From contig JAETNY010000004.1 of the NCBI GenBank assembly GCA_021771915.1, positions 1 to 64,000 on the forward strand: a stretch of 64,000 nucleotides of DNA, written 5' to 3'. Position 1 is the first letter of the stretch; the number at the start of each line of letters is the position of its first letter. Positions 6,616-39,324 of this stretch are shown piece after piece. The position numbers and the translations under genes are program-made. This DNA comes from Bacillota bacterium. GTDB lineage: Bacteria; Bacillota; Dehalobacteriia; UBA4068; UBA4997. The notes under the pieces are model-generated. The model saw only the letters and a list, made by a program, of their open reading frames with translations. It was not told where the DNA came from and made no database searches.

Positions 6616-6906
6616 ATGAACGCAAATAAAAAGAAAATTGATAAATTGAATTTGGAGTATGCCAAAAATGATGAGAAGATTGCCTGGCTAATGGAGCGGC
6701 AGCGAGAGATTGAAAAGCAGCGCACCGAGCTGGAAAATCTGGATATTGTGAGAATGGTGCGAGGTCTGGGTTTGAGTTTTGACGATTTATCCGAACTCAT
6801 CAACGGCGAAAAGGCGGCGGCAGAACTCAAAAATGACGTTTCGGCAGCCTATGAAACCGCTGTGGAGGAATATGCCGAGGCCGAGGGAGGCGTTTGGAAT
6901 GGTTAA
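6616..6906 (+). CDS. DUF4315 family ICE protein
   Basis: A 96-residue protein starting at ATG 6616 behind gggagg. The first 45 residues form a charged coiled coil ([20 protein letters not shown]...) followed by [21 protein letters not shown], the signature stretch of DUF4315. The family is found only in conjugative elements, between the NlpC/P60 and DUF4366 genes, as here. Its function is unknown; a cytosolic scaffold for the channel is a guess. The stop overlaps the start of the next gene by 8 bases. Confidence 0.8.
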
Positions 6907-7627
6907 AGCCCGGCGCATTTCCGCCCTGCTGCTTGTTCTGCTGCTCTGCCTTAGCATTAACTGCTGCACAAAACCAGCTTATGCTTTGGTTATAGAAGAA
7001 ACACCGGAACAAACCGAGTTAAATGCAGTGCAGGACTGGAGCAATCCCAACGCCTTAACCCCGGAGGGAAATTTAACTCTGGTAGACGACGTGCAGCCGT
7101 TCAATTCTTCGGATAAAGAGTTTTTGACTGTTCAAACCAAAAGCGGCAATTACTTTTACATCATCATTGAGAGGGATAATGACGGCAAACAGAATGTGCA
7201 TTTCTTAAATCAGGTGGACGAGGCGGATTTGCTGGCTTTGCTGGAAGATGAGCCAAAAGCAGAAAAACCGCCTGCCTGCATTTGTAAAGGTCAGGATAAA
7301 TGCTTTGTCGGCTCCGTCAACACTGCCTGTGAGGTCTGTGCCGTCAGTATGCAGGATTGTCTGGGCAAAGAAATTGTCCAGGCGGAGCCGGAACAGGATA
7401 GCAAAGCCAAGCCAATGGCCGCTTTAGGCGTGCTGCTGGCATTGCTGGCAATCTTCGGCGCAGGCGGTTTCTATCTCTTTAAGAGTATTGCGGCCAGAAA
7501 CGCTAATAAGCAGCCTGCCCCGGATTTTGATGATGAAGATGACGATGATTATCTGGAAGACGACGAGGAGGTGGAAATGGAGAAAGATACGGAAAATGAC
7601 AGCGAGGGAGATGATGAAGAAACTTAA
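6899..7627 (+). CDS. DUF4366 (CD1107-type) membrane-anchored ICE protein
   Basis: A 242-residue protein from ATG 6899 (ribosome site gagggagg, overlapping the DUF4315 stop). It has a signal peptide (about residues 1-30), an extracellular middle part with a Cys cluster (CICKGQDKC, then CEVC and DC), a membrane segment near residues 175-200 and a strongly acidic tail. This layout is that of DUF4366 proteins, found in clostridial ICE transfer modules and presumed to be part of the extracellular face of the channel. No enzymatic motif is visible. Confidence 0.8.
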
Positions 7628-12990: not shown

Positions 12991-13046
12991 ATAGCAAAAT
13001 GGCCGCCTTGCGATATGTTTTTTAATCGCAGGGCGGTCATTGCTAT
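12991..13046 (+). terminator. Long hairpin before topoisomerase III
   Basis: Left arm 12,991-13,014 and right arm 13,025-13,046 pair over about 21 positions (atagca/tgctat at the base, ggccgcc/gggcggtc in the middle, gcgat/atcgc at the top) with a two-base bulge and two mismatched or G-U positions. T-runs occur in the loop but not after the right arm, so termination would be weak; it separates the surface-protein gene from topB and may be an attenuator or RNA stop/processing signal. Confidence 0.5.
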
Positions 13047-13072
13047 ATCTAAATAAGAATGGAGGAATTTGT

Positions 13073-14866
13073 TTGAAAGAAAAACTAAAGTTAGTGATTA
13101 GCGAAAAGCCCAGCGTAGCAATGAATTTGGCGAAAGTGTTGGGCGCAAATACCAGAAAAGATGGCTATCTGGAGGGAGCCGGCTGGCTGGTTAGCTGGTG
13201 TGTTGGCCATCTGGCCGGGCTGGCTGCGCCGGAGGTTTACAACAAGGATTATGCCAAATGGCGCAGGGAGGATTTGCCGATTTTGCCCAGCGGCAGCTGG
13301 CGAATGACGGTTACGGAAAACACCAGAGGTCAGTTTGAAATCCTCAAAAAGCTGCTGCGTAGAAGTGATGTGGAATATGTAGTAAACGCCTGCGACGCTG
13401 GCAGGGAGGGCGAGTTAATCTTTAGGAGCGTTTATCACCTGGCCGGGTGCGATAAACCCATAAAGCGGCTTTGGATAAGCAGTATGGAAGAAGCCGCTAT
13501 CCGGGAAGGCTTTGCCAACCTCCGACCGGGCGAAGATTTTGCAGGGCTTTACCGGGCGGCTTTGTGTCGGGCAAAGGCGGATTGGCTGGTTGGAATTAAC
13601 GCCACTCGCCTGTTTTCCCTGCTCTATGGCCGGACTTTGCATATTGGCCGGGTAATGTCCCCCACGCTGGCAATTGCGGTGGAGAGAGAAGCGGAAATCG
13701 CCGCTTTTCAGCCGGAAACCTTTTACAGTGTGGAAATCCAGTGTGGCGATTTGAAGCTGACCAGTAAAAGAATGGCAGATAAAAAGGCGGCTGAAGATTT
13801 GGCAGAAGCTTGCGCAAATACTTCTGTTACAATTCAACAGGTTGAGCGTCAGGAGAAAAGCGAAAAACCGCCCCTGCTCTATGATTTGACCGCTTTACAG
13901 CGAGAGGTCAATCGCCGGGTTGGCTACACCGCCCAGCAAACGCTGGACTATCTACAAGCATTGTATGAAAAAAAACTGGTAACCTACCCCCGAACGGACA
14001 GCCGCTATCTGACCGAAAATATGCAAAGCATTGTGGCGGATTTGGTACAAACAGCGTCGGCAGTCTGCGGCCTTATCGCTCCGGCGGAAATTCTGGCAGC
14101 GCAGGTCTGCAATACCGCTAAAGTGAGCGACCATCACGCTGTTGTGCCGACTAAAACCTTAACCGCAGATAAAGTCAAAGATTTGTCCAAGGGGGAAAAC
14201 GCTATTCTGGGACTGGTCTGTTTTGGGCTGCTCCGAGCTGTGGCCGCCCCCTACCGTTACGTTCAGACTAAAGTTACCGCTGAATGTGCAGGAAAAATAT
14301 TTTCAGCCGGATATAAAGAAATTTTAGATTACGGTTGGCGGCAATATTACCCCAAAGATATAACTGGGGATAAATTTGACATTGAATTGAGCGAGGGGCA
14401 ACAGCTAGCCGTTGGGGCGGCAAACATTAAGCAGGGCCAAACCGAACCTAAAGCCCACTTCACCGAGGATACCATCCTAGCGGCAATGGAAAAGGCTGGC
14501 AATAAAGAAATGCCGCAAGATATAGAGCGCAAAGGCATTGGTACTCCGGCTACCAGAGCCGGTATTTTGGAAAAGCTGGTGAACGTGGGACTGCTGGAGC
14601 GCAAAAAGAGCAAAAAGGCGGCTAATCTACTGCCCACCAAGCTGGGTCAGGCTTTAATCACCATTCTGCCGGAGGAACTGCAATCTCCGCTGCTTACTGC
14701 TGAATGGGAGCAACGGTTGTTGGAAGTAGAAAACGGCAGTTTGTCCGAGGAAGAATTTATTCAGGGCATTGAGGATCTGATAAGCGGTCTGGTTAAGGAT
14801 TGCCGGGCGGTTCCCGGAGCCGAAGCTTTGTTTCCGCCTATACAGCGGAGGGCAAAGAATGGCTGA
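13073..14866 (+). CDS. topB: DNA topoisomerase III (type IA) of the ICE
   Basis: A 597-residue type IA topoisomerase that relaxes and decatenates single-stranded or gapped DNA. The Toprim domain begins LKLVISEKPSVA, with the acidic motif NACDAGREGELIF around residue 107; the active-site Tyr lies in TYPRTDSRYL (residue 305). The TTG at 13,073 follows ggaggaattt, so I use it and not the longer frame. Topoisomerase III is a regular part of clostridial ICEs and probably helps process the element during transfer. The stop overlaps the next gene by 8 bases. Confidence 0.93.
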   Translation: MKEKLKLVISEKPSVAMNLAKVLGANTRKDGYLEGAGWLVSWCVGHLAGLAAPEVYNKDYAKWRREDLPILPSGSWRMTVTENTRGQFEILKKLLRRSDVEYVVNACDAGREGELIFRSVYHLAGCDKPIKRLWISSMEEAAIREGFANLRPGEDFAGLYRAALCRAKADWLVGINATRLFSLLYGRTLHIGRVMSPTLAIAVEREAEIAAFQPETFYSVEIQCGDLKLTSKRMADKKAAEDLAEACANTSVTIQQVERQEKSEKPPLLYDLTALQREVNRRVGYTAQQTLDYLQALYEKKLVTYPRTDSRYLTENMQSIVADLVQTASAVCGLIAPAEILAAQVCNTAKVSDHHAVVPTKTLTADKVKDLSKGENAILGLVCFGLLRAVAAPYRYVQTKVTAECAGKIFSAGYKEILDYGWRQYYPKDITGDKFDIELSEGQQLAVGAANIKQGQTEPKAHFTEDTILAAMEKAGNKEMPQDIERKGIGTPATRAGILEKLVNVGLLERKKSKKAANLLPTKLGQALITILPEELQSPLLTAEWEQRLLEVENGSLSEEEFIQGIEDLISGLVKDCRAVPGAEALFPPIQRRAKNG

Positions 14867-15322: not shown

Positions 15323-15362
15323 AATTGAGATGACAAGTTTGAATTTGGAGGTGATATGGTTT

Positions 15363-18300
15363 ATGATAAATAAAGTACAAAGCTATGCAATGCTGTCCGG
15401 GCAGACCGCCCGGCAAATTACAGCCAGCCGGGAGCAGTGGACGGACTTCCTGCGCTTATCCGGCAGACTGTATAAATACCCTTTTGCGGAGCAGCTGCTT
15501 ATTTACGCCCAAAGGCCGGAGGCCAAAGCCTGCGCCGAGTACGATTTCTGGAACAGCCGAATGCAGCGTTATGTGCGGCGAGGCTCCAAAGGCATTGCCT
15601 TAATTGACGAGAGCGGCAGCCAGCCCCGGCTTAAATATGTGTTTGACGTATCCGACACTGGGGGCAGGCGCAAGCCCTATCTGTGGCAATATGATGAAAC
15701 CAAACATCAAGATGTTGTCGGAGCGGCGCTAGAACAAGAATACGGCGTGTCGGCAGAAAACGGTTTGGCCGGGCAGCTACGGAGCATTGCCGCCGGAATG
15801 GCGGAGGAATATTGGCGGCAAAATCAGGAAGATATTTTATCCGAAGTTTATGGCAGCGCCCTGTCCCGGCTGCCCAGAGAGGATATTGCAGCCGGCTATC
15901 TGGAGGCGGCAGAAGTAAGCATTGCCTACACACTGCTTTCTCGCTGCGGTCTGGAGGCGGACAGCTATTTTACACACGAGGAGTTTTTGAGTATCTTTGA
16001 CTTCAACACGCCGGCTACGGTGGCAACATTGGGCGCTGCGGTCAGCGATTGCAGCGAGCAGGTTTTACGGCAGATTGAAGTTGTGGTAAAGAATTATGAG
16101 CGAGAGCATATTTCAGAAAGGATTGAAGAAAATGACAAAATTGAATTACCAACAGGTGGGCGATTATCTGTTGCCGGAGTTGAGTATGAGCGAAGAAGCG
16201 ATGAAACCGCTGGGCAAATACGCACTGCTGCGGCGGGATTATCTGAAGAAGCACAGGCCAACTCTTTGGACGGCGCTGCAAGTGGAGGGTCAGTTGCACA
16301 GCCACCTGCTGGAGATCGAGGAAACGGCCAAACGCCGGTTGGAGCAGATAATGCAGGATTTGACGGAGGCCGCAGGAGCAGACGAAAACCTCAAAGCCGA
16401 AAATCCCCTGCAATGGGTGGGGCTGATGAACAGCCTGCACCAACAGGCGGAAGAGATAATTCTTCGGGAGCTGATATTAGCATAGGTTCGGCGGAAGTTG
16501 GATCGCAAACGGTACAATTAAGTTTATTTGACCTGTCCACTATTCCCAGTGAACAGCAGCAGAGAGCGGCCATTGCAAAGGCCGCTCCTGTTCTTTTTAA
16601 GCAGAAGTTCAGTCAGGAAGAAACAGACAATGTGCTGCGCTTTGGCTGCAATGAAAGAAATGCCCGAATGGAGATTGCCGCCGAATTCAGCAAACAAAAA
16701 CCGCTTGCAGATAAGGCGGCCTATCTGCAAAATCTTTTTGAGGGCGGCCACGGCTTTTTAAACGACGATGGTAATATTTCCGTCTGGTTCGCCGACGAGG
16801 GTATTCGTCTTATGCGAAACGGCAGCGTCAGATATGATAATCGTGCGCAAATTATCCCCTGGCAGCAGGCGGCAGAGCGAATAGACGAGCTGCTGTCTGC
16901 CGGGGAATTTGCCAGCGAGTTGGAAATTGCCGGGGCTTTGGGCTATGAAAGAAAAAGAATTGCCAGCGATTTGTGGGATATAGCCAGAGATTTAAGCGAC
17001 GAGGGAAAGAAACAGGGTTTGTTTTCTTTTATCAGGGTAGAGGTTGAAGCTGTTTCCGGCGGTTTTCCGGAAGAAGTAGAGAAATTATCTCAAATGTTAG
17101 CCGAGCCGGAGCAGTTGTCCCAAATTATTGCTGAATACAGTGGATTTGCGAAAGCCTATTCCCAAAATAGAAAGGTTATGCGTTTCCGGCCTAATACGGC
17201 TAAAGGAATGGCAGCCAGGCTGGCCGATTTACAACTTCCCCGGCTGGAGTACGGCAGCAAAATGCCGGAATTGCCGGATGTTGAACAGTTCATTACGGAA
17301 GATGAGCTTGCGGCGGCTTTAAGCTATTATAGCCGTTCTGACAGCAGCCGACACCGGATATATAGCTTCTTTAGAGAGCCGCACACTGCCAAAGAAAAAG
17401 CAGATTTTCTGAAAAAGGAATACGGCATTGGCGAGCGAAGCGGCGCTTTGCCGGGCAGCTTTTCATCTTTTGAGAATTATGACGCTAAAGGTATTAGGTA
17501 TAGCAAATCAAATTGCCCTGACGTTATGCTTAGCTGGAATAATGTGGTTAAGCGTTTAGATAAGCTAATTACCGATGGGCGATATATTAGCGCCGAGGAA
17601 TTGGCTCAATGGATGGAACAGGCAGAGCTAACACAACCTGCACCGGAGGCTGGACAAACGCCAGATATTGAAATCAGTAAATCGGAAATTATTGAGCCGG
17701 AAGCTGTGCAAATGCCGGAAGTTACCAAAGAACAAAAGCCGCTTACAGATACAAAAACGCAGTATAAGGTTGGCGATATGGTCTATTTGGAGAATACGGC
17801 TTTCGTCATAGAAAAGATTGACCAGTGGGACGTTAGCCTTTTGGATCATACGCTTATTTATCCAATCTTCCGCTCCGAAAATAAAGAAAACTTTGAGCGC
17901 CTTTTGCAGCAGGACGAGCGGAATAATTATCTTTTTAATATAGAAGAAACTGTTTCTAAAACCGCAGATATTGAAGTTGTGGAGCCGGAAGTTGAAGTTA
18001 TGCCAACTACTGCGTCTGTGGGTAACTATGCTATCTGGAACAGCGATTTAGGCGTTGGCGGCGTTAAAACCAAATATGCAATGAATGTGGCGGCAATAAA
18101 GACGCTGAAACAGATTGAGCAGGAAAACCGTCAGGCCACACCGGAAGAGCAGGAAATATTGAGCCAGTATGTGGGCTGGGGCGCATTGCCAGAGGTTTTC
18201 GACAGTACCAAAGAAAACTGGCAGACCGAATACGCCGAATTGAAAAGCCTGCTCACCGATGCTGAATATATTGCCGCCAGAGGCAGCGTTTTGAACGCTC

Positions 18301-21300
18301 ATTACACCAGCCCTACGGTTATTAACGCCGTTTACAGCGGTTTAGCCAGACTGGGATTTGCAAACGGCAAAATACTGGAGCCTGCCTGTGGGGTGGGTAA
18401 TTTTTTTGGCCTGCTGCCGGAGCCAATGCAGCAAAGTAAACTTTATGGCGTAGAGCTGGACAGACTGACCGGCAGAATTGCCAGGCAACTTTACCCAAAT
18501 GCTAATATCCAGATTAAGGGGTTTGAGCAAACCAACTTTAATGACAATTCCTTTGACGTGGCCGTTGGCAATGTGCCTTTCGGCAATTATAGCGTAAACG
18601 ATAAGCCATACAATAAGCTGGGGTTTAGTATTCACAACTACTTTTTCGCCAAGGCGCTGGATAAAATCCACCCCGGCGGTGTGCTGGCTCTGGTTAGCAG
18701 CCGCTACACTATGGACGCTAAAGACAGCAGGGTGCGGCGTTATCTGGCGGAGCGGGCGGATTTGCTGGGGGCAATCCGGCTGCCCAATAACGCTTTCAAG
18801 AAAAACGCCGGAACGGAGGTTGTATCGGATATTATCTTCCTGCAAAAGAGGGAGCAGCTACGAGATTTATCCGATAAAACGCCGGAATGGGTAGAGGTTG
18901 GCGAAACAGATAATGGTTTCAAGATAAACCAATACTTTATAGATAACCCGGAGCAGGTTTTGGGTGAAACAGCAGCCGTCAGCACTCAATACGCCAGTCA
19001 GGATTATACGGTCAATCCCCTGCCCGGCGTGTTTCTGGCGGAACAGCTGCCTGCCGCTTTGGAGAATATCCGAGGCCAATATATTCCTGCCGAACAGGAT
19101 ATTGAAGTTGAACAAACTGCCGAAACTTCTGATGTAGATTTAGCAGAAGTACAGCCTAAAAACTACTCTTTTGTTGTTGCCAATAATGAGGTTTACTACT
19201 GCCTTAACAATAATCTGGTAAAGCAGGATTTAAGCAATACCGCTAAAGAGCGGATTAAAGCATTAGTCCAGCTTCGGGATTGCACTCAGCAGCTTATCTC
19301 AATGCAGATGGACGAGGATATGCCGGATACTCCAATCCAAAACCAGCAGGCGGAATTAAACCGTCTTTACGATAGCTTTAACGCTAAATTTGGACTCATC
19401 AACGACCGGGCTAACCGGCTGGCTTTTTCCGAGGATAGTTCCTACTATTTGTTATGCGCTTTGGAAATTCTGGACGACGAAAATAAATTGAAATGCAAAG
19501 CGGATATGTTCACTAAACGCACTATCCGGCCATATAAAGCGCCGGAGCGAGTGGATACGGCGGCGGAGGCGCTGGCTGTTTCTATCGCTGAAAAAGCCAG
19601 AGTGGATTTGGCATATATGAGCCAACTTTCCGGTAAAACGATGGATGAGATTACCTCAGATTTGCGTGGCGTTATCTTCCAGAACCCGGCAAATAATTTG
19701 TGGCAGACTGCCGACGAGTACCTGTCCGGTAATGTGCGGCATAAGCTAAAGGTTGCCGAATTTGCCGCTGGGGATAATCCGGCATTTACAGTCAATGTGG
19801 AGGCTTTGCGTCAGGTGCAGCCCAAGGATTTGGAGGCGCAGGAGATAGAGGTACGGCTTGGCGCCACCTGGATAGATAAGGAATATTTCCAGCAGTTTAT
19901 GTGGGAGGTTCTGGAAACGCCGGGATATTTGCGAGATAAAATAACCATAGACTACTCTACCCATACGGCGGAGTGGCATATTAACAGCAAAAATGCCGTA
20001 TCCGGCAACGATGTGGCGGCTTACAACACCTACGGCACAGACCGGGCTAACGCCTACAAAATATTGGAGGACAGTCTTAATTTGCGTGACGTGCGGATTT
20101 ACGATACGGTTGAGGACGCTGACGGCAGCAAAAAGCGGGTATTCAACGCCAAAGAAACCACGTTGGCTGCTCAAAAGCAACAGGCTTTAAGAGAGGCTTT
20201 CAAGGATTGGATTTGGCGGGAGCCGGAGCGGCGGGACAAACTGGTGCGGCAGTACAACGAGGAAATGAATTGTTTTCGCCCCAGGGAATATGACGGCAGC
20301 CATATTAAATTTGTAGGAATGAACCCGGAAATAACCTTGCGGGAACACCAGATAAACGCTATTGCCAGAGTAATCTATGGCGGCAACACCCTGCTGGCCC
20401 ACGAGGTAGGAGCAGGCAAAACCTTTGAAATGGTGGCGGCGGCTATGGAGAGCAAGCGTCTGGGACTGTGCCATAAATCGTTATTTGTGGTGCCAAACCA
20501 TCTGGTGGAGCAATGGTCGGCGGAGATTTTGCGGCTTTACCCGGCGGCAAAAGTGCTGATAACCACCAAAAAGGACTTTGAAAAAAGCAACCGCAAAAAA
20601 TTCTGCGCCCGGATTGCTACTGGGAATTATGATGCGGTCATCATCGGCCAGAGCCAGTTTGAGAAAATCCCAATCAGCCCGGAGCGGCAAACAAATCTGC
20701 TGGAGGAGCAGATTGAGGAAATAACCCTGGGTATTGCCGAAATGAAAGCCAATAACCAGGAGCGTTTCAGTATTAAACAGTTGGAAATTACCAAAAAGCG
20801 CTTGCAGGATAAGCTGGAGAAAATACAGGCGCAAGCGGCAACACATAAGGACAGTGTTATTTATTTTGAGGAATTGGGCGTTGACCGAATGTTTGTGGAC
20901 GAAAGCGACAACTATAAGAACCTCTTTCTCTATACTAAAATGCGCAATGTGGCCGGTCTGTCCACTACCGACGCTCAAAAATCCTCGGATATGTTTGCCA
21001 AGTGCCGCTATCTGGACGAACTGACCGGCGGCAAGGGAGTTATCTTTGCCACAGGCACCCCAATTTCCAATTCAATGACGGAAATGTATACCATTCAGCG
21101 GTATTTGCAATATGACCGCTTGCAGGAAATGGGTATGGGGCATTTTGACTGCTGGGCTTCAAGGTTTGGCGAAACCACCACCACGCTGGAGTTAGCCCCG
21201 GAGGGTACGGGGTATAGAGCCAGAACCAGATTTGCCAAATTCTTCAATCTACCGGAGTTGATGTCAATATTCCGGGAAGTGGCCGACATTAAAACGGCTG

Positions 21301-22958
21301 ACCAGCTTAATCTGCCTACTCCGGAGGTGGAGTACCATACGCTGGCTGCCAAACCTACCGAACACCAGCAAATTATGGTGCAAGAATTATCTAAAAGAGC
21401 CGAGGCAATCCATAATGGAAGAGTTGAGCCGGAAATAGATAATATGCTTAAAGTTACTTCTGATGGCAGAAAGTTGGGCTTAGACCAGCGAATAATCAAT
21501 CCCAATCTTCCTGATGAGGAAAACACCAAGGTCAATATGTGCGTGGCGAACGTGCTGAAATACTGGCGTGAGGGCGAAAAGGACAAGCTGACGCAGCTGG
21601 TTTTCTGCGATATATCCACACCGCAGGCCGGTGTGAAATCCGATATAAACATAGACAATGAGCCTATTTTTAGCAATGTTTATGCGGATATTAAGCGCAA
21701 GCTAATTGTCGGCGGTATGCAGCAGGAACAGGTGGCGTTTATCCACGAGGCCAAAACAGATATTCAGAAAAAGGAACTGTTTGCTAAAGTACGCTCCGGT
21801 CAGGTTAGGGTTTTAATTGGCAGCACCGCCAAAATGGGAGCCGGAACCAATGTGCAGGACAGGCTTATTGCCAGCCACGATTTAGATTGCCCCTGGCGGC
21901 CACGAGATTTAATCCAGCGTGAGGGGCGTATTCGCCGGCAGGGCAATATGAATAAGCAGGTTCACGTTTGTCGTTATGTAACAGAGGCCACATTCGACGC
22001 TTATTTGTGGCAAACCATTGAGAATAAACAGAAATTTATCTCTCAGATTATGACTTCCAAAAGCCCTGTGCGCAGTTGTGAAGATGTGGACGAGGCTGCC
22101 CTCTCCTATGCCGAGATTAAAGCTTTATGCGCCGGTGATCCTCGTATTAAGGAGCGTATGGAATTAGACGTGGAAGTTAATAAGCTGAAAATTATGAAAG
22201 CCAGCCACCAAAGCCAGCAGTATCGCCTGCAAGACCGCCTGATTAAGTATTTCCCGGAGCAGATTGCCGCTAAAGAAGCGATTTTGGCTGCTTTGCAAAA
22301 AGACAAAACAACTGCAGAAAATAACCGGCAGCCCAAAGAGGGCTTTGTTGGTATGGAAATTGGCGGCGTAACATATCACGAGAAAGACAAAGCCGGAACA
22401 GCTTTGCTGGAAAAATGTAAAAGCTATGTCAGTCTGGAGGCAAGCAAAATTGGCAGTTACCGGGGCTTTAATATGTATCTCTCCAGAGAGGGTTTTCGGC
22501 AGGATTTAACGATAACCCTTAAAGGCGCTATGGAGCATAAGGTGGAGCTAGGCACAGATATTCGGGGCAATATTATCCGCCTGGATAATGCTTTAGCCCA
22601 GATAGATAAACGCATTGCCGATGTGCAGAATACTTTGGCTAATCTGCACCAGCAGCAGGAGGCGGCTAAAGCCGAGATTGGCAAACCCTTTGAATTTGAG
22701 GTCGAATTGAGCCAAAAAAACGCCCGGCTAATTGAATTGGATATGGAACTCAATATGGATATGCAGCCGTCGGAGCCGGAACAACAGCAGGAACAATCCG
22801 AGCCGCCAGAACCAACGGCGGAAATTAAGGAGCCGGAGCCAGCTTTAGCGCAAAGAGCCAGAACCTCAATTCTGGAGAGGCTGCGCCAACCCCTGCCACC
22901 CCGGCCGGAGATGACCGCTAAAGTTACTAAGCCAAAAAGTTACGCTATGGAGTTATAA
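15363..22958 (+). CDS. Giant N6-adenine methylase-like / SNF2-like helicase fusion
   Basis: 2,531 residues from ATG 15,363 (ggaggtgat at good spacing). The N-terminal block resembles ArdC-like/antirestriction N-terminal regions of ICE proteins. A methylase core has motif I EPACGVGNF (about 1006) and NVPFGN (about 1070) in place of NPPY. The helicase core has EVGAGKT (1681-1687), VDESDN as motif II (1845) and QREGRIRRQG as motif VI (2185). Such proteins are hallmark genes of clostridial ICEs, thought to protect or remodel incoming DNA; activity is unproven. Residues 257-374 are a low-complexity linker over which a second gene (tnpV) is encoded. The C terminus repeats the Glu/Pro-rich ILERL tail also seen in the next gene. 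Confidence 0.88.
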   Translation: MINKVQSYAMLSGQTARQITASREQWTDFLRLSGRLYKYPFAEQLLIYAQRPEAKACAEYDFWNSRMQRYVRRGSKGIALIDESGSQPRLKYVFDVSDTGGRRKPYLWQYDETKHQDVVGAALEQEYGVSAENGLAGQLRSIAAGMAEEYWRQNQEDILSEVYGSALSRLPREDIAAGYLEAAEVSIAYTLLSRCGLEADSYFTHEEFLSIFDFNTPATVATLGAAVSDCSEQVLRQIEVVVKNYEREHISERIEENDKIELPTGGRLSVAGVEYERRSDETAGQIRTAAAGLSEEAQANSLDGAASGGSVAQPPAGDRGNGQTPVGADNAGFDGGRRSRRKPQSRKSPAMGGADEQPAPTGGRDNSSGADISIGSAEVGSQTVQLSLFDLSTIPSEQQQRAAIAKAAPVLFKQKFSQEETDNVLRFGCNERNARMEIAAEFSKQKPLADKAAYLQNLFEGGHGFLNDDGNISVWFADEGIRLMRNGSVRYDNRAQIIPWQQAAERIDELLSAGEFASELEIAGALGYERKRIASDLWDIARDLSDEGKKQGLFSFIRVEVEAVSGGFPEEVEKLSQMLAEPEQLSQIIAEYSGFAKAYSQNRKVMRFRPNTAKGMAARLADLQLPRLEYGSKMPELPDVEQFITEDELAAALSYYSRSDSSRHRIYSFFREPHTAKEKADFLKKEYGIGERSGALPGSFSSFENYDAKGIRYSKSNCPDVMLSWNNVVKRLDKLITDGRYISAEELAQWMEQAELTQPAPEAGQTPDIEISKSEIIEPEAVQMPEVTKEQKPLTDTKTQYKVGDMVYLENTAFVIEKIDQWDVSLLDHTLIYPIFRSENKENFERLLQQDERNNYLFNIEETVSKTADIEVVEPEVEVMPTTASVGNYAIWNSDLGVGGVKTKYAMNVAAIKTLKQIEQENRQATPEEQEILSQYVGWGALPEVFDSTKENWQTEYAELKSLLTDAEYIAARGSVLNAHYTSPTVINAVYSGLARLGFANGKILEPACGVGNFFGLLPEPMQQSKLYGVELDRLTGRIARQLYPNANIQIKGFEQTNFNDNSFDVAVGNVPFGNYSVNDKPYNKLGFSIHNYFFAKALDKIHPGGVLALVSSRYTMDAKDSRVRRYLAERADLLGAIRLPNNAFKKNAGTEVVSDIIFLQKREQLRDLSDKTPEWVEVGETDNGFKINQYFIDNPEQVLGETAAVSTQYASQDYTVNPLPGVFLAEQLPAALENIRGQYIPAEQDIEVEQTAETSDVDLAEVQPKNYSFVVANNEVYYCLNNNLVKQDLSNTAKERIKALVQLRDCTQQLISMQMDEDMPDTPIQNQQAELNRLYDSFNAKFGLINDRANRLAFSEDSSYYLLCALEILDDENKLKCKADMFTKRTIRPYKAPERVDTAAEALAVSIAEKARVDLAYMSQLSGKTMDEITSDLRGVIFQNPANNLWQTADEYLSGNVRHKLKVAEFAAGDNPAFTVNVEALRQVQPKDLEAQEIEVRLGATWIDKEYFQQFMWEVLETPGYLRDKITIDYSTHTAEWHINSKNAVSGNDVAAYNTYGTDRANAYKILEDSLNLRDVRIYDTVEDADGSKKRVFNAKETTLAAQKQQALREAFKDWIWREPERRDKLVRQYNEEMNCFRPREYDGSHIKFVGMNPEITLREHQINAIARVIYGGNTLLAHEVGAGKTFEMVAAAMESKRLGLCHKSLFVVPNHLVEQWSAEILRLYPAAKVLITTKKDFEKSNRKKFCARIATGNYDAVIIGQSQFEKIPISPERQTNLLEEQIEEITLGIAEMKANNQERFSIKQLEITKKRLQDKLEKIQAQAATHKDSVIYFEELGVDRMFVDESDNYKNLFLYTKMRNVAGLSTTDAQKSSDMFAKCRYLDELTGGKGVIFATGTPISNSMTEMYTIQRYLQYDRLQEMGMGHFDCWASRFGETTTTLELAPEGTGYRARTRFAKFFNLPELMSIFREVADIKTADQLNLPTPEVEYHTLAAKPTEHQQIMVQELSKRAEAIHNGRVEPEIDNMLKVTSDGRKLGLDQRIINPNLPDEENTKVNMCVANVLKYWREGEKDKLTQLVFCDISTPQAGVKSDINIDNEPIFSNVYADIKRKLIVGGMQQEQVAFIHEAKTDIQKKELFAKVRSGQVRVLIGSTAKMGAGTNVQDRLIASHDLDCPWRPRDLIQREGRIRRQGNMNKQVHVCRYVTEATFDAYLWQTIENKQKFISQIMTSKSPVRSCEDVDEAALSYAEIKALCAGDPRIKERMELDVEVNKLKIMKASHQSQQYRLQDRLIKYFPEQIAAKEAILAALQKDKTTAENNRQPKEGFVGMEIGGVTYHEKDKAGTALLEKCKSYVSLEASKIGSYRGFNMYLSREGFRQDLTITLKGAMEHKVELGTDIRGNIIRLDNALAQIDKRIADVQNTLANLHQQQEAAKAEIGKPFEFEVELSQKNARLIELDMELNMDMQPSEPEQQQEQSEPPEPTAEIKEPEPALAQRARTSILERLRQPLPPRPEMTAKVTKPKSYAMEL
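16132..16485 (+). CDS. tnpV: TnpV-like protein, nested inside the methylase/helicase gene
   Basis: A 117-residue frame from ATG 16,132, with aaagga 8 bases before it. It reads LNYQQVGDYLLPEL, a KPLGKYALLRRDYLKKHRP stretch, then QWVGLMNSLHQQAEEI, which is the TnpV pattern known from Tn4451-type and many other clostridial elements (function unknown). It lies wholly within the larger gene in a different frame. The larger frame is a Gly/Ala/Arg/Gln-rich linker over the same bases, while the TnpV frame is an ordinary globular helical protein, so I take both frames as coding. Confidence 0.75.
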   Translation: MTKLNYQQVGDYLLPELSMSEEAMKPLGKYALLRRDYLKKHRPTLWTALQVEGQLHSHLLEIEETAKRRLEQIMQDLTEAAGADENLKAENPLQWVGLMNSLHQQAEEIILRELILA

Positions 22959-24268: not shown

Positions 24269-25291
24269 ATGGAGATAATGGAATGGGTTTTTGAAAATCT
24301 AAATTACAAGAACAAGTCAGGTAAGATAGCCATATTTGTATTATATGTAATATACTTTTTCAATTTACTATTTATGGTTTTAACTCAACAAAAGATGGAT
24401 TATGGTACATTTTTGGTACAGTTATTTTTTTTAATAATTATAACTATATGGATTTATATGGCACCTTATTTTTATAATGATATTTTAAGTTTGAAGAGTT
24501 TATTTACAAATAATGATGAATATAATAGTGAATATAACAAAATGAAAAATAAAATTTATCTATTTAAATTTAAGGACAACAGTTCTATTTGCAAAATAAT
24601 AAAGCTAGTTTACATTATAATTGGAATTGTTATTCTATTATATGAACTTTATTATTTTTATATATATTATGAATGTCAATTAAATTTTAATAATTTTTTT
24701 GCGATTGTTTTAGTGGTAGTGTCATTTTTGTTAAATTTTTCAAGTTATTATTTAAGTTTAGAATTAACTTATCTTATAAGGAATATTTCCAAATTAAGCA
24801 ATTTAAAATATAACATATTTATTCCATCTAGCACATATGAATTTGTAAAATTGAAAAAGAATGTTGATAATGCTTCAATCGTTTTTCTTATTATTGTTGT
24901 CCTTTATAATCTTTCTTATATAACTTTATTAATTGCTAGGACTAACCAAAACAATACATTAGAAATTTTATCTGCTTTATGCTTTCTAATATTTAGTATA
25001 TTTAGTTGTTTTTATGCTACGGTATTACCAAAATATTACCTTTATCAGCTTTTTTTTAATTGGAAAGAATTATCATTAAAGAAGTTTCAAGAAAAACTTT
25101 ATAATACAATGGAGAATAAAAGCTCTTATAAGCAAATTGAAAAAATAGTAAGAAAAATCAATCGATTGAATAATGATAAAGTAGAATTTGGCTTAGTAAG
25201 TAAATTTGGAACAATAGTTGGTTTAAGTACAATAATATATAATTTTATACAAATTTCTTCTTTGATAAAAGAAACGATAAATGGGTGGTGA
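24269..25291 (+). CDS. AT-rich multi-spanning membrane protein of unknown function
   Basis: 340 residues from ATG 24,269 (aaggag nine bases before; ATG 24,263 is too close to it). I see about six membrane segments in the first 270 residues and a last hydrophobic stretch at the C terminus, with a charged helical part (about 275-315) between. Two 60-base lines that I counted have 17% and 22% G+C, against 48% in a line of the relaxase gene; Asn, Ile, Tyr and Lys are abundant. It splits the usual mobC-relaxase pair and overlaps the relaxase start by 11 bases. I recognise no family. Exclusion, defence or toxin-immunity roles fit such a place, without direct evidence. Confidence 0.7.
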   Translation: MEIMEWVFENLNYKNKSGKIAIFVLYVIYFFNLLFMVLTQQKMDYGTFLVQLFFLIIITIWIYMAPYFYNDILSLKSLFTNNDEYNSEYNKMKNKIYLFKFKDNSSICKIIKLVYIIIGIVILLYELYYFYIYYECQLNFNNFFAIVLVVVSFLLNFSSYYLSLELTYLIRNISKLSNLKYNIFIPSSTYEFVKLKKNVDNASIVFLIIVVLYNLSYITLLIARTNQNNTLEILSALCFLIFSIFSCFYATVLPKYYLYQLFFNWKELSLKKFQEKLYNTMENKSSYKQIEKIVRKINRLNNDKVEFGLVSKFGTIVGLSTIIYNFIQISSLIKETINGW

Positions 25292-26699
25292 TGTATATAC
25301 GGCAACGACAAGGTTTATTCCCCTGCACACAGGCAAAGGCCGTAAAGCTGGTAAAGCCATAAGTGAAATTATTGATTATGTGGAAAACCCGGAAAAGACG
25401 GATAACGGCAAACTTATCAGCAGCTATGAGTGCGACAGCCGAATTGCCGACGCTGAATTTGCTCTATCCCAAAGAATTTACCAAACCAAAAGCGGCAGGG
25501 AACAAAAAGAAAACGACGTTATAGCCTACCAGATAAGGCAGTCCTTTAAGCCGGGCGAGATAACCCCGGAGGAAGCCAACCGACTGGGCTATGAATTAGG
25601 AATGCGCTTTACCAAAGGACAACACGCCTTTATTGTCTGCACGCATATTGACCGCTGCCATATTCATAACCATATAATCTTTTGTTCTGCCAGTTTGGAC
25701 TGCACAAAAAAGTTTACTAATTTTTGGAACAGCGGTAAAGCAATACGCAGATTAAGCGATATTATTTGTATCGAGAATGGCTATTCGGTTATTGAGGAAC
25801 CAAAACGCCGCCGGGGTTTAAGTTACAACCGCTGGCAGGAGCAGCAGGGAATTGAAAATAAGACCTCGCATAGAGATATACTGCGGCAGGCCATAGATAA
25901 GGCTCTATCTCAAAAGCCCAAAGATTTTGACAAGCTGCTGAAGCTGTTGCAAACAGATAATATTGAGGTTAATAAGCGAGGCAAAAACTGGCGTTTGAAA
26001 GCGGCAGACTGGCAGCAGTTTGTCAGGTTAGACAGCCTGGGCGCTGGCTATGCCGAGGCTGAATTAGCAGCGGTTTTGGCTACCGGCCAAGCGATTAAAC
26101 CAAAGGAAAAAATAAATCTGCTGGTAGATATTCAGCGGAAATTGGCCGAGGGTAAAGGCGGCGCTTATTCCCGTTGGGCCAGCGTATTCAACTTAAAGCA
26201 GATGGCAAAAACATACAACTATCTGAATGAAAATAACCTGCTCAGCTATGAGGAATTGGCTGTTAAAACTGCGGCGGCCAGCGAGCGTTACAATGAGTTA
26301 TCCGGTCTGATCAAGATTGCGGAAAAACGAATGGCGGAGATTGCCGTCTTGAAAACGCATATTATCAATTACGCTAAAACCAGGGAAGTATATGTGGCGT
26401 ATCGCCAGGCCGGCTATTCCAAAAAGTTTGCCTCCGAACACGAAAGCGCCTTGCTGCTGCATAAGGCGGCGAAGCAGTTTTTTGACGAGGCCGGTTTGAA
26501 AAAGCTGCCCACTGTTAAAAGCTTGCAGGCCGAATATTCCCGGCTGCTAACGGATAAGAAAGCGGCTTATGGAGAATACCGGCAGGCCAGAGAGGAAATG
26601 AAAGAGCTTTTAACAGTTAAGGCCAATGTGGATAGTTTGCTGGAGATAGACGCAAACAAAGAAAAAATAAATCAGCGAGAGCCGGAGGCAAATCGTTGA
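25281..26699 (+). CDS. Relaxase / mobilization endonuclease (HUH type)
   Basis: 472 residues. The N-terminal relaxase domain has the metal-binding HUH motif HIDRCHIHNH at residues 122-131 and the family start (RFIPLHTGKGR, IIDYVENPEKT). It nicks oriT and is carried covalently on the transferred strand. The C-terminal half is helical and charged. The only in-frame ATG (25,281) overlaps the stop of the upstream AT-rich gene, and it lacks a clean ribosome site of its own, so translation is probably coupled. The conserved block begins six residues later, which suggests that the original start was changed by the insertion. Confidence 0.9.
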   Translation: MGGDVYTATTRFIPLHTGKGRKAGKAISEIIDYVENPEKTDNGKLISSYECDSRIADAEFALSQRIYQTKSGREQKENDVIAYQIRQSFKPGEITPEEANRLGYELGMRFTKGQHAFIVCTHIDRCHIHNHIIFCSASLDCTKKFTNFWNSGKAIRRLSDIICIENGYSVIEEPKRRRGLSYNRWQEQQGIENKTSHRDILRQAIDKALSQKPKDFDKLLKLLQTDNIEVNKRGKNWRLKAADWQQFVRLDSLGAGYAEAELAAVLATGQAIKPKEKINLLVDIQRKLAEGKGGAYSRWASVFNLKQMAKTYNYLNENNLLSYEELAVKTAAASERYNELSGLIKIAEKRMAEIAVLKTHIINYAKTREVYVAYRQAGYSKKFASEHESALLLHKAAKQFFDEAGLKKLPTVKSLQAEYSRLLTDKKAAYGEYRQAREEMKELLTVKANVDSLLEIDANKEKINQREPEANR

Positions 26700-28683: not shown

Positions 28684-29220
28684 ATGAAAGAATTGGAGCC
28701 AGAAAAGAAAAAATTTGTTGATAAATTATATAGAGAGCAGTATACATCTCTTTTAGATTATGCTAAAATATTTTTAGATGAGTCCAGTGCAGAGGAAGCT
28801 GTGCAAGATGTTTTTCGGGATGCTTGCGTAAAAATAGATAGTATTATGGCCAGTGAAAATCCAATAGGCTGGTTGGTTAACGCATTAAAGTTTTCTATCG
28901 GTAAAATTAAGCGAAAAAAAGAACAATATGCCAGAACGATAGTTTTAATGCCAGTATATCTTGACAGCGATGATAATGTGGAAACTAGTATTGAGGATAT
29001 TCCTGATACTAATCCGCCAGATGAAGATGTTGATTTTTTGTATTCTGATTTATCAGTACATAAAGAGTTTCAGTTAATGAAGCAATATGCTGTTGAAGAT
29101 AAATCCATTAAAGAGATAGCAGATGAGCAAGGTATAAGCATAAATGCCTGCAAACAGAAACTTTATAGGTGTAGATTGAAACTTAAAAAATTATGGGACA
29201 AACAAAATGAAAAAACTTAA
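28684..29220 (+). CDS. ECF-type RNA polymerase sigma factor
   Basis: 178 residues. Region 2 (YTSLLDYAKIFLDESSAEEAVQDVF, about 19-43) and region 4 (SIKEIADEQGISINACKQKLYR, about 139-160) are typical of extracytoplasmic-function sigma factors, which respond to envelope stress through an anti-sigma factor. The next gene encodes a single-span membrane protein with a cytosolic N terminus, the expected partner. Between the two lies the first of three copies of a 43-bp two-part motif, the proposed target promoter. Confidence 0.85.
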   Translation: MKELEPEKKKFVDKLYREQYTSLLDYAKIFLDESSAEEAVQDVFRDACVKIDSIMASENPIGWLVNALKFSIGKIKRKKEQYARTIVLMPVYLDSDDNVETSIEDIPDTNPPDEDVDFLYSDLSVHKEFQLMKQYAVEDKSIKEIADEQGISINACKQKLYRCRLKLKKLWDKQNEKT

Positions 29221-29226
29221 AAAATA

Positions 29227-29269
29227 GCGTTACCTTTTCCATTTGTGATGGTGTATATATAATAGAGGG
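29227..29269 (+). promoter_or_regulatory. Proposed ECF promoter, copy 1
   Basis: GCGTTACCTTTT, 12 variable bases, then GTGTATATATAATAGAGGG. The same two blocks with the same spacing recur at 30,755 and 32,873. It lies 12 bases before the anti-sigma gene, and its AGAGGGGAGG end also supplies the ribosome site, so the transcript would start with almost no leader. The two-part form and its place after the sigma gene suggest recognition by that sigma factor; this is inference. Confidence 0.65.
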
Positions 29270-29281
29270 GAGGTTTAGATT

Positions 29282-30166
29282 ATGTCAAAGGTCGAAGATA
29301 AAGGGCGTCAAAATTCAAAATACGATAAATTCGACAAGCTTGATACGGCTACTTTAGAGGCGATTCTGCGAGCTGATTTTGGCGCCCCAGAGGCTGAACA
29401 GCTGGCAGCGGAAGAAGTTTTGTATATTGCCAGTCTGGTTGCAGAACGTCGGAAATTTTCAAGGCCAGATATTGATAAAGCGCAGGAAGAATTTTATCAA
29501 TATTATTATCCGTTGGATAGGCCGATATATGATTTTGGTGATGAAGAAGATGATTCTCAAAACAAAATTCAAACCGAAACGACGCAATATAAAAATGACA
29601 AGAAGGTGCTGCCGTTTTATAAAAAGGCTTGGCGCAAATTTGCCAGTGTAGCCGCTGTTTTGGTTTTATTTATGTTTGTCGGTACTGTTACGGCATATGC
29701 CTTGGGATATAATCCTTTTCCGGTCAGGCCGGTATGGGATGAAGAACATTTTTGGTTTGAGAAAGATGTGCCAACCTTTGAAATGTTGCAAGCTGTATCA
29801 AAATATGAAAATATAGATAATTTGATTCCCCAATGGCTACCTAATGGCTATAAATTTGAAAAGATAGAAACATCTGAAAATGATTCAAGGATCAGTCTTA
29901 CTTCAAGCTATTATAAAGAAACAGAAAATAATACGGAAGTAATAAGTATTAGTTGTTTATATCTTAATGATTATAAAAATACTCTTTATGAAAAAGACGC
30001 ATATGATGTTATTACTTATCCAGTGCATAATACAGATTATTACATTATGACAGATAAAGAATATTTAACAGTTGCCTGGAACAGCGGTAACACTGAATAT
30101 TATATTACCGGCGAAATATCTGTCGACGATGCTAAAAAGATGATTGATTCTATTTATGATGATTAG
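29282..30166 (+). CDS. Membrane anti-sigma factor with DUF4367-like outer domain
   Basis: 294 residues: a cytosolic charged N-terminal part (1-118), one membrane segment (about 120-142, SVAAVLVLFMFVGTV) and an outer domain whose IPQWLPNGYKFEKIE motif is that of DUF4367, common in clostridial anti-sigma factors. It directly follows the ECF sigma gene and has a gggaggttt ribosome site. It should hold the sigma factor at the membrane until an envelope signal releases it. The N-terminal zinc-finger type of anti-sigma domain is not visible. Confidence 0.8.
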   Translation: MSKVEDKGRQNSKYDKFDKLDTATLEAILRADFGAPEAEQLAAEEVLYIASLVAERRKFSRPDIDKAQEEFYQYYYPLDRPIYDFGDEEDDSQNKIQTETTQYKNDKKVLPFYKKAWRKFASVAAVLVLFMFVGTVTAYALGYNPFPVRPVWDEEHFWFEKDVPTFEMLQAVSKYENIDNLIPQWLPNGYKFEKIETSENDSRISLTSSYYKETENNTEVISISCLYLNDYKNTLYEKDAYDVITYPVHNTDYYIMTDKEYLTVAWNSGNTEYYITGEISVDDAKKMIDSIYDD

Positions 30167-36375: not shown

Positions 36376-36446
36376 AATTTACTTGAATTATTATATAGTT
36401 TATGCCATATATTATACTGTTAATTTTTAATTAGGAGGCTGATTGT

Positions 36447-36599
36447 ATGGCTGAAGAAAAAATACAATCTGAAAATAAGTTTTGTAAAAATATTTTTAGA
36501 ACAGTAGATGGTAGAATATCTAAGGCAGATTTTACACAAAAGTGGATAGAACTTATAAATGCTCAAGAAAAAAATAAGATGATAATCACTCACCAATAA
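36447..36599 (+). CDS. Small conserved-looking ICE protein (50 residues)
   Basis: A 50-codon frame with a good ribosome site (taggagg). The stretch IFRTVDGRISKADFTQKWIE suggests a compact helical domain and resembles small proteins seen next to recombinases in clostridial elements, but I cannot name the family. Its position just before the serine recombinase suggests a regulator or excision helper; this is inference. Confidence 0.55.
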   Translation: MAEEKIQSENKFCKNIFRTVDGRISKADFTQKWIELINAQEKNKMIITHQ

Positions 36600-36731: not shown

Positions 36732-38285
36732 ATGAAAGCAGCTATTTACTGTCGTTTATCTGAAGAGGATAAAAACAAGCAATTTGCAACTGATGACAGC
36801 AACAGTATTCAGAACCAAAAATCAATGTTACTGCAATATGCGATGGAACAGGGGTGGGATATTTATAATATTTACAGTGATGATGATTATGCTGGTGCAG
36901 ATAGAAAACGTCCGGAGTTTAATAAACTTTTGTCTGATGCAGAGCAGCATAAATTTGATGTAGTGCTTTGCAAAACCCAATCTCGCTTTACCAGAGAGCT
37001 GGAATTGGTGGAAAAATATATTCACGGTTTGTTTCCAATTTGGGGAATACGCTTTGTCAGTATCGTTGATAATGCGGATACGGCAAACAAAGGCAATAAA
37101 AAATCTCGTCAGATAAATGGTCTTGTTAATGAATGGTATCTTGAGGATATGTCCGAAAATATTCGCAGTGTTTTGGATAACCGGCGAGCTAATGGTTTTC
37201 ATATTGGTGCGTTTGCGCTTTACGGATATAAAAAGGATCCGGAACATAAAGGTCATTTAATCATTGATGATGAGGCTGCGGCTGTTGTTCGTGAGGTTTT
37301 TACTCTTTTTGCACAGGGTTATGGTAAAAATGCCATTGCCCGAATGTTGAACGATCGAGGTGTACCAAATCCAACAGAATATAAACGTCTGCAAGGTTTA
37401 CGCTATCAGCAGCCTAAAACCAAAAATAGCACTCTATGGAAATATTTTGCGATTGCTAATATGTTACGCAATGAAATCTACATAGGTAATATGGTGCAGG
37501 GTAAATATGGCAGTGTTTCTTATAAAACCAAACAGAACAAACCAAGACCAAAAAGTGAATGGTTTGTGGTTGAGAGAACACACGAGCCGATTATTGACCG
37601 GGAGCTTTGGGAAAGGGTGCAGTTATTACAGCAGCAAAGAGCCAAGCCTTTTATCGTTGGGCAAATTGGCTTGTTTGCCAAAAAAGCACGTTGCGCTAAC
37701 TGTGGCTATATTATGCGTTCTTCTAAAAGTCAGGGGAAATATTATTTGCAATGTCCGAACAGGCACGTTGCCAAAGATGCTTGCGAGGGTGCTTTTATTT
37801 CTGTTGACAGATTGGAGCAAATGGTTATTGATGAACTGAATCGTTTGGCGGCTGAATATCTTGATAAAGACGAATTGGCTATGAAGATTGAGTTTTGTAA
37901 TAACTTGCAAGAACAGAAAAAAACCTTGCTTGCAGATAAATCTGTTTATGAGAAAAAACTTACGGAATATACCAAAGGCATTCAAGATCTTTATATGGAC
38001 AAAGTTAAAGGCTTGATTAGCGATAGCGATTTTATTGTACTGTCAAAAAATATTTCTCAGGAAAAAGAAAGAATGCTGCAACTGGTGCAGGATGCACAAA
38101 ATCGAATAATTGCTATTGATAATAAAATTGCCGCCGGTGATAATCGGCGTGAGTTGATTGAGCAATATACTAATCTGGAGCATTTGGATAGAAACATTGT
38201 TGATACGCTGATAGACTACATCACTGTGGATAAGCGCATTCAAGGAACCCGAAATGTGCCTATTGAAATTCATTGGGCATTTTAG
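36732..38285 (+). CDS. Large serine recombinase (site-specific integrase of the element)
   Basis: 517 residues. The resolvase catalytic domain starts AAIYCRLSEED, with the nucleophilic Ser at residue 10, and has the conserved TQSRFTRE loop; the recombinase domain (GYKKDPEHKGHLIIDDE, IARMLNDRGVPNP) follows, then a zinc ribbon (CANCGY...CPNRHV...C, about 319-352) and a coiled coil (about 395-470). Enzymes of the TndX/TnpX type both integrate and excise elements without tyrosine chemistry. It reads towards the interrupted cotJC 200 bases away, which it most likely targeted. Ribosome site aaggaga precedes ATG 36,732. Confidence 0.93.
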   Translation: MKAAIYCRLSEEDKNKQFATDDSNSIQNQKSMLLQYAMEQGWDIYNIYSDDDYAGADRKRPEFNKLLSDAEQHKFDVVLCKTQSRFTRELELVEKYIHGLFPIWGIRFVSIVDNADTANKGNKKSRQINGLVNEWYLEDMSENIRSVLDNRRANGFHIGAFALYGYKKDPEHKGHLIIDDEAAAVVREVFTLFAQGYGKNAIARMLNDRGVPNPTEYKRLQGLRYQQPKTKNSTLWKYFAIANMLRNEIYIGNMVQGKYGSVSYKTKQNKPRPKSEWFVVERTHEPIIDRELWERVQLLQQQRAKPFIVGQIGLFAKKARCANCGYIMRSSKSQGKYYLQCPNRHVAKDACEGAFISVDRLEQMVIDELNRLAAEYLDKDELAMKIEFCNNLQEQKKTLLADKSVYEKKLTEYTKGIQDLYMDKVKGLISDSDFIVLSKNISQEKERMLQLVQDAQNRIIAIDNKIAAGDNRRELIEQYTNLEHLDRNIVDTLIDYITVDKRIQGTRNVPIEIHWAF

Positions 38286-38495
38286 CGCAAAGATTCACAA
38301 GACTTATATAAGCCATCGGTGCGCTTAAAAATCAAATAGGGTATATAAATGTATCAAATTGATTTTCAGGGGCCTTACAGGGCATTTTTGAACGGAGTTT
38401 GTTCTTACAATATCGTACCCAGAAAAAGCATGTACAAACGAGAATGCTCTATTTATGCGGCTTTGAGGCACTATTTGTTCTTAGGCAATCGTACC
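38286..38495. other. Right end of the ICE and junction with cotJC
   Basis: Between the recombinase stop and the cotJC fragment there is no credible gene. The cotJC protein follows its family as far as the MAAE codons (ending at about 38,496) and then shows four unrelated residues and a stop, so the crossover is placed within a few bases of 38,495. A palindromic stretch (ggggcctt...gggcatt) lies around 38,370. The matching left junction is outside the window, so the repeated core cannot be read. Confidence 0.65.
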
Positions 38496-38903
38496 CTCTG
38501 CTGCCATATCCTCATGCAAATCGGTTATAATATCTCCTTTGGATTGGAAATAGGAAGCTGTGAACGGTACGCCGGCTGCTGAAGCAGGATAAATGCCTGT
38601 TGTGTGGTCAACGAAAAAGCTGTCAAAGCCTTGCTCTTTAATTTCTTCAATGCTTAAATCTTTGGTTAGCTGGAATACGATAGCGCTTATCATTTCCATG
38701 TGTGCCAACTCTTCAGTGCCAATATCTGTAAGCAGTCCGGCCACATCTCGATAGGGCACGCTATAACGCTGTGAAAGATAGCGTAAAGAGGCTGCCAACT
38801 CGCCGTCGGGGCCGCCGTATTGGCTGATGATAATTTTGGCAGCTTTAGCGTCGGGGTGTTTAATATTAACTGGGTATTGTAATTTTCTGTCATAATTCCA
38901 CAT
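38481..38903 (-). pseudogene. cotJC: Spore coat protein CotJC, 3' end removed by the ICE
   Basis: 140 residues are left of a protein that is usually about 190. The N-terminal part (MWNYDRKLQYPVNIKHPDA, QYGGPDGELAASLRYLSQRY, GTEELAHMEM) is standard CotJC, a manganese-catalase-like coat protein. After DLHEDMAAE the frame continues only GTIA and stops; the family continues with a helix containing further metal ligands. The lost part should lie left of the element, outside the window. Thus this copy should be inactive unless the element is excised or the truncated form is used. cotJB lies directly upstream. Confidence 0.85.
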
Positions 38904-38909
38904 AGCTGC

Positions 38910-39161
38910 TTATGCCTCCTTTTCCCATGGCCAGGGTTCTGCAATCCAGGTCCAGCCGTCATTGCTGTTGACGCCATAAACAGTTAAAGGACCAAATTTA
39001 TCCTCATACTCACTGGTTAGAGCAGTCAAAAGGTTGTTGTAATACTTAAAGTATTCTAAGGCTCCCTCACAGGTGGGGTGAGTGTCCAGAAATAATTGAA
39101 CGTCTTTTACCACGAAGGCAATGATTTGAATATCAAGTAATAACTGTTTTTTTTCATTCAT
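38910..39161 (-). CDS. cotJB: Spore coat protein CotJB
   Basis: 83 residues from the ATG at 39,161 (MNEKKQLLLDIQIIAFVVKD). The sequence FLDTHPTCEGALEYFKYYN is the family signature. CotJB is a small coat protein that works with CotJA and CotJC in the spore coat of Bacilli and Clostridia. The start overlaps the cotJA stop by 8 bases. The operon order cotJA-cotJB-cotJC is as usual; only the last gene is damaged. Confidence 0.9.
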   Translation of the reverse strand: MNEKKQLLLDIQIIAFVVKDVQLFLDTHPTCEGALEYFKYYNNLLTALTSEYEDKFGPLTVYGVNSNDGWTWIAEPWPWEKEA

Positions 39162-39324
39162 TTTGGCCACGCTCCCTTGCTTTTTTTCCGTAAAATGGCA
39201 AATTTAAGTCCGGAAAAATTGTACCGTTGATGAAAGCGTCCTCTGGCCGATAAGTTTCCGCCCAGGGTTGAATAGGCACGCTGGCAATGCCCAGCTGGGT
39301 GCAGGTGGTTGGTTGTTGAGTCAC
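39154..39324 (-). CDS. cotJA: Spore coat protein CotJA
   Basis: 56 residues, GTG start at 39,324 with a strong ribosome site (taaggaggt). It contains ASVPIQPWAETYRPEDAF and GTIFPDLNLPFYG, the CotJA family pattern. First gene of the cotJ operon, expected to be made in the mother cell; I could not identify a convincing sigma-E promoter. The 228 bases up to gerKA contain the divergent control regions of both operons and no further gene. Confidence 0.85.
   Translation of the reverse strand: MTQQPTTCTQLGIASVPIQPWAETYRPEDAFINGTIFPDLNLPFYGKKARERGQNE

Follow-up and report, generated by a model that had tools for sequence, protein, structure and literature searches.

The spore-coat manganese catalase gene cotJC is split by an integrative conjugative element that is probably excised in the mother cell

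In the 64,000-nucleotide stretch of a Bacillota genome analysed here (the window; positions 1 to 64,000 of contig JAETNY010000004.1, assembly GCA_021771915.1), the spore-coat gene cotJC ends early beside the gene of a large serine recombinase. Has the gene simply been inactivated, or is it split, like sigK by skin, by DNA that is removed during sporulation? The initial annotation had proposed a skin-like element with a complete conjugative element as the intervening DNA, and had named simple inactivation as the plain alternative. The coat locus comprises the following features:

38467 to 38496, minus strand: element half of the attachment site (GGGTACGATTGCCTAAGAACAA...)
38481 to 38903, minus strand: cotJC ORF, 140 aa
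38496 to 38903, minus strand: 5' part of cotJC, residues 1-136; the ORF continues to 38481 via four foreign codons
38497 to 38504, minus strand: recombination core GCAGCAGA, 8 bp, the chromosome/element junction beside the 5' part
38910 to 39170, minus strand: cotJB, whole (PF12652)
39154 to 39324, minus strand: cotJA, a short whole ORF read from the sequence by eye
G000:C41:2417-2424, outside the window: second copy of the core GCAGCAGA

As annotated, cotJA and cotJB are whole and CotJC is cut off at 140 residues. Residues 1-136 match CotJC and are followed by GTIA and a stop, and the match to the Pfam model Mn_catalase (E=5e-39) starts at profile position 1 and ends at position 150 of 284. 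A genome of the same genus (G007), which has an empty site, contains an intact cotJC of 200 aa with residues 1-136 identical to those in the window. Searching the window's own genome (G000) with the DNA located downstream of the break in G007 revealed the missing 64 codons on another contig, at G000:C41:2417-2620, as a single occurrence. The annotation had regarded a complete second cotJC or a naturally short CotJC in relatives as speaking against an interruption. Both were rejected, since no second or intact copy was found in G000 and intact relatives have about 190-200 aa. An assembly artefact was rejected as well, because in the sister genome G005 the same junction recurs and the recombinase is 91% identical.

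The two junctions, read in the orientation of cotJC, are gatatgGCAGCAGAgggtacgattgcctaagaac on the window side and tttgttctttcgtgattGCAGCAGAacaaaaagc on the C41 side, and the short core anticipated at both element ends is present in each. Joining the halves at this core yields 200 codons with the frame restored, codon-perfect across the core; the joined protein is identical to the intact CotJC of G007 in 199 of 200 residues, with 22 of 603 nucleotides differing. The best explanation is that attB consists of the codons for D-M-A-A-E-Q-K-A in cotJC and is the fixed target of the window recombinase. On the element side, positions 38467-38495 are identical in G005, and the same type of half-site is present in other loci. 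On C41, the 3' part of cotJC is followed by a transposase-like ORF (L034:3013-3627, identified by eye), where G007 has rfbB; the rfbB gene of G000 is located on contig C29 (212607-213814), and the region downstream of the cotJC 3' part has therefore been rearranged or separated.

The DNA between the two halves could be followed across three contigs. Contig C47 overlaps the first 116 bases of the window and, in reverse, the first 21 bases of C41, as determined by script. In the order reversed C41, C47, window position 1, the cotJC 3' part lies at the left end of the element on the minus strand, where the initial annotation had suggested looking for it. Provided that these overlaps reflect true joins, the element would be closed at 2,416 + 3,894 + 38,388 bases, about 44.7 kb. 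Its main features are:

1 to 38496, plus strand: body of the conjugative element, continuing leftward through contig C47 to C41:1-2416
34 to 546, plus strand: C-terminal part of a TrbL/VirB6-like protein, running into contig C47
2626 to 5121, plus strand: VirB4/TraG-type ATPase
5286 to 6599, plus strand: NlpC/P60 cell-wall hydrolase of the transfer module
6779 to 7627, plus strand: CD1107-like mobile-element protein
13040 to 14866, plus strand: element-borne DNA topoisomerase
25281 to 26699, plus strand: relaxase with MobA/VirD2 nuclease domain
36732 to 38285, plus strand: large serine recombinase, 517 aa, with Resolvase, Recombinase and Zn-ribbon domains

The VirD4 coupling protein and, following it, the N-terminal part of TrbL are encoded on C47. 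With relaxase, VirB4-like ATPase, VirD4 and channel protein all found, the element is an integrative conjugative element (ICE) by gene content, and its integrase and two attachment sites were found as well; the conjugative nature claimed before is thus borne out. The recombinase gene is transcribed towards the break and ends 211 bases from it, close by as annotated. A phage origin was rejected, as the recombinase is less than 60% identical to the proteins in all phage records. The element also encodes a 2542-residue SNF2-type helicase with a weak DNA-methylase match (15330-22958); very large helicase-methylases are typical of large clostridial ICEs. A 1727-residue protein with three S-layer homology domains (7778-12961) is possibly a surface adhesin for mating, and a Sigma-70 region-4 protein followed by a DUF4367 protein (28684-30166) is likely a sigma/anti-sigma-like pair carried as cargo.

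The window is not an isolated case. When 84,980 species genomes were scanned with the recombinase of the window, 80 loci emerged with recombinases of 74-91% identity, mainly from Lachnospiraceae, Oscillospiraceae, Anaerotignum, Blautia and other Clostridia. In 74 of the 80, the recombinase gene has a neighbouring cotJC fragment, between a few hundred bases and a few kb away, that breaks off at residue ~136. The halves were then sought in 79 genomes (G005, the 80th locus, was left out as already known); both were present in 61, and 59 of these 61 have no intact copy. Where both halves share one contig, the element measures 3.2-40 kb. The attachment half-sites of the window match those of the small elements, and GA may be the crossover dinucleotide, to judge by a variant junction in L126. 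Minimal elements, L085 (3.2 kb) among them, carry little beyond the recombinase, a small ORF and one cargo gene. The recombinase gene is located beside the 5' part of cotJC in some loci and beside the 3' part in others. Two opposite insertion orientations were considered and rejected: the half-sites keep a single orientation across loci, and therefore it is the position of the recombinase gene within the element that differs. Parablautia intestinalis carries two tandem copies of the cotJC-specific recombinase within one element (L065:4995-9154), of which the second seems to be disrupted by a frameshift or stop. Counted by eye, cotJC is interrupted in about 11 of the 39 genomes with cotJC in the window's class.

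Going beyond the initial annotation, we found breaks in cotJC at four different sites, across many species. In addition to the break at residue ~136, close relatives have the gene broken at site A, after residue ~31, and at site B, after residue ~64; a further position, site D after residue ~176, is used in some loci. In L084:6935 and L108:4725 the site D break follows HFQRFGEA, and a second serine recombinase is encoded on the opposite strand, about 1 kb away. Alignment with solved manganese catalases places all four breaks at metal-ligand motifs, the established ligands of the Lactobacillus enzyme being Glu35, Glu66, His69, Glu148 and His181. These motifs are the most conserved DNA of cotJC. 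Recombinases of the same site are 41-47% identical for site A, 42-69% for one site-B family and 65% for a second; between sites, identity is only 17-25%. The serine-recombinase families at three of the four sites are unrelated to one another. In 16 of the 79 genomes cotJC is in at least three pieces. G434 (Blautia sp. An249), G487 and G494 each have three collinear pieces on a single contig, and in G463 the gene is apparently in four. An assignment of G003 to site A only was rejected, since its recombinase and 3' fragment fit site B; a middle cotJC piece was looked for in G003 and not found.

Two candidate control features were identified ahead of the recombinase gene:

36406 to 36413, plus strand: -10-like box CATATATT, where relatives have the sigma-E-type promoter
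36447 to 36599, plus strand: conserved 50-aa ORF preceding the recombinase gene, a candidate recombination directionality factor

In 77 of 81 loci, among them the window, the recombinase gene is immediately preceded by a small ORF of about 50 residues. Its consensus is C-x-S-V-F-K-S-G-E-x-T-T-S-K...W-I-E-L-I-N-x-x-E-K, and it has no match to any Pfam or NCBIfam model. Upstream of it, the motif ATA-N16-18-CATANNNT occurs in 56 of 74 loci, counts that are not independent since the sequences are related; the mean was 1.1 in dinucleotide shuffles, and nine of 583 other ORFs in the same loci (1.5%) have it. In C. difficile, ATA at -35 with the same -10 box is the sigma-E form, and AC marks sigma-K (PMC3789822), suggesting that the motif is a sigma-E-type promoter. 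In the window the -10 box is good and the -35 is non-canonical, AAT instead of ATA; with the -10 part only, the promoter is uncertain for this copy. Unrelated site-B recombinases in G012, G015 and G017 likewise have a small ORF, with a conserved sigma-E-type motif upstream, ATA-N15-CATA(A/G)AAT. These small site-B elements (L046, L047 and L048) are kept in three species, and a short 3' flank inside the element is conserved.

The cotJ operon itself would be read later. A sigma-E promoter was rejected for it, the motif being present in one of 42 upstream regions, and a sigma-K-type motif fits better: the form AC-N15-17-CATANNNTA was found upstream of cotJ in 18 of 41 loci against 5% of controls (again related, not independent sequences). 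The strict motif is absent upstream of cotJA in the window, where a loose sigma-K-like AC-N17-AATATACTA can be seen by eye. In C. difficile, the homologous genes cotCB and cotD depend on sigma-K (PMC3789822). The genome of the window contains sigE, scoring above the curated cut-off, and spoIVA (SpoIVA), so that its host is, judged by gene content only, a predicted spore former.

Taken together, sporulation-specific excision is the best explanation, and the locus is probably a skin-like element that is excised in the mother cell. The large serine recombinase would insert the ~44.7 kb ICE into attB within cotJC, leaving vegetative cells with a split gene from which the whole enzyme could not be made. 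In the sporulating mother cell, the small element protein, expressed from the sigma-E-type promoter, would switch the recombinase to excision. The element would exit as a circle, and the parts of cotJC would be joined in frame ahead of transcription of the cotJ operon from its sigma-K-type promoter, excision thus coming first and cotJC transcription second. The chromosome of the spore would retain the element, because the mother cell dies. The skin-like reading of the initial annotation gains support from the position of the 3' part, the shared core, the empty site and the lack of a second copy, mother-cell excision being the part that we infer.

It might also be possible that this is an ordinary site-specific ICE with cotJC as a safe harbour, its excision rare and tied to transfer rather than to sporulation, and a dispensable cotJC simply inactivated. 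The full conjugation gene set and the incomplete promoter motif in the window would agree with this, as would the observation that in many pairs divergence is much lower for the recombinase than for the host cotJC (L062 and L069: recombinase dS 0.14, cotJC saturated). Because of this difference the element appears to move between species, which suggests that the recombinase family has been transferred between cells; many insertions would therefore be recent transfers, and their fragments may have had no time to decay. We nevertheless consider the safe harbour unlikely. Each of the 59 3' fragments examined stays open until it reaches its natural stop, site D or another break site, or the end of its contig. 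Fragments are under strong purifying selection where element and host were inherited together: in the trio L085/L105/L128, dS is 0.35-0.42 for the recombinase and 0.33-0.43 for cotJC, as would be expected of joint inheritance, and dN/dS of cotJC is 0.04-0.07. Among three species with a site-B element, the 5' fragments are identical in 63 of 63 residues at dS >1, and two of the three have identical 3' fragments at dS 0.87. A promoterless 3' fragment would be hard to keep so constrained unless it is rejoined. In addition, minimal cassettes of 3-5 kb, too small for transfer genes, retain an intact recombinase and the small ORF, the mother-cell-type promoter motif is conserved, and nearly all carriers are without another intact cotJC.

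A recent insertion that killed cotJC, with halves that will decay, is a much less probable explanation. The few nucleotide differences between the window pair and G007 (22/603) mean that this insertion could be young; however, cotJC was broken independently at four sites in many species and every fragment is open, dN/dS is about 0.04-0.07 or lower at unsaturated dS, and in L085/L105/L128 the insertion is old and vertically inherited, the 3' fragment being fully constrained. Simple inactivation is thus disfavoured, because fragments elsewhere stay open under strong purifying selection. That the halves function unjoined, for instance as two separately translated chains that assemble, is hardly credible: the 5' ORF does have a promoter and a start of its own, and in-frame codons could start some 3' fragments, but 3' fragments have no cotJ promoter, the break lies inside a metal-ligand motif, and the breaks in cotJC fall at four places and leave as many as four pieces.

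Excision in the mother cell would place cotJC beside a few known systems. As in the sigK skin elements of Bacillus subtilis and Clostridioides difficile (skinCd; PMC5025042), an element with a large serine recombinase splits a mother-cell gene, and precise rejoining restores the frame, for cotJC by joining the sequences. SkinCd encodes a small directionality factor, CD1234, under sigma-E control, and its recombinase is expressed constitutively (PMC5025042). The target of skin is a sigma factor and the element a prophage remnant, whereas here cotJC is hit by a conjugative element whose small ORF immediately precedes the recombinase gene; excision has been demonstrated for skin and is inferred for cotJC. 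SPbeta, which is excised from spsM during sporulation by its serine recombinase (PMC4191935), is likewise a complete mobile element within a spore-envelope gene; it is an active phage, unlike the cotJC ICE with its recombinase below 60% identity to every phage record. The elements gin in gerE (PMC5595907) and yin in yabG (PMC10747680) are also removed to rebuild sporulation genes, and gin resembles the 3-5 kb cotJC cassettes in not being prophage-like; gin comes from B. cereus ATCC10987 and yin from a single isolate, whereas cotJC elements are spread across hosts of many families and sit at four sites of one gene. In C. difficile, the phi027 prophage adjoins a spore manganese-catalase gene, the CotJC homologue cotG (PMC11222575, PMC12122855); in contrast to cotJC, cotG is downstream of attR and reported whole. 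We found no earlier description of an interrupted cotJC in the open-access literature searched, subscription journals being outside the scope, and as far as this literature goes the choice of target gene, an ICE as the element body, the four break sites and the host breadth appear to be new.

Extending mother-cell excision from this locus to the whole set, we lean slightly towards regarding cotJC as a gene with removable DNA introns. Unrelated recombinase families, each using a different metal-ligand motif, would have converged on mother-cell-controlled excision, with ICEs and 3-kb cassettes as the intervening DNA, and some species would have to excise two or three elements to obtain an active catalase.

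Only a handful of sporulation genes are, to our knowledge, rebuilt by excision (sigK, spsM, spoVFB, gerE, yabG), most of them known from Bacillus and from a few strains of Clostridium. With cotJC, ICEs as well as minimal cassettes split a single coat gene, in four places and in dozens of Clostridia from the gut. The set contributes a recombinase family whose target is broad and conserved, together with a candidate directionality factor, and opens the process to tests in cultured strains, the carriers including Anaerotignum lactatifermentans DSM 14214, Parablautia intestinalis D8-82, Blautia sp. An249 and Flintibacter muris DSM 110149. It is also a warning that annotation pipelines will report cotJC as missing or truncated in such species. 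More generally, it suggests that terminal differentiation of the mother cell is a general refuge for mobile DNA, because a broken spore gene would cost nothing if it is mended in a cell that is due to die.
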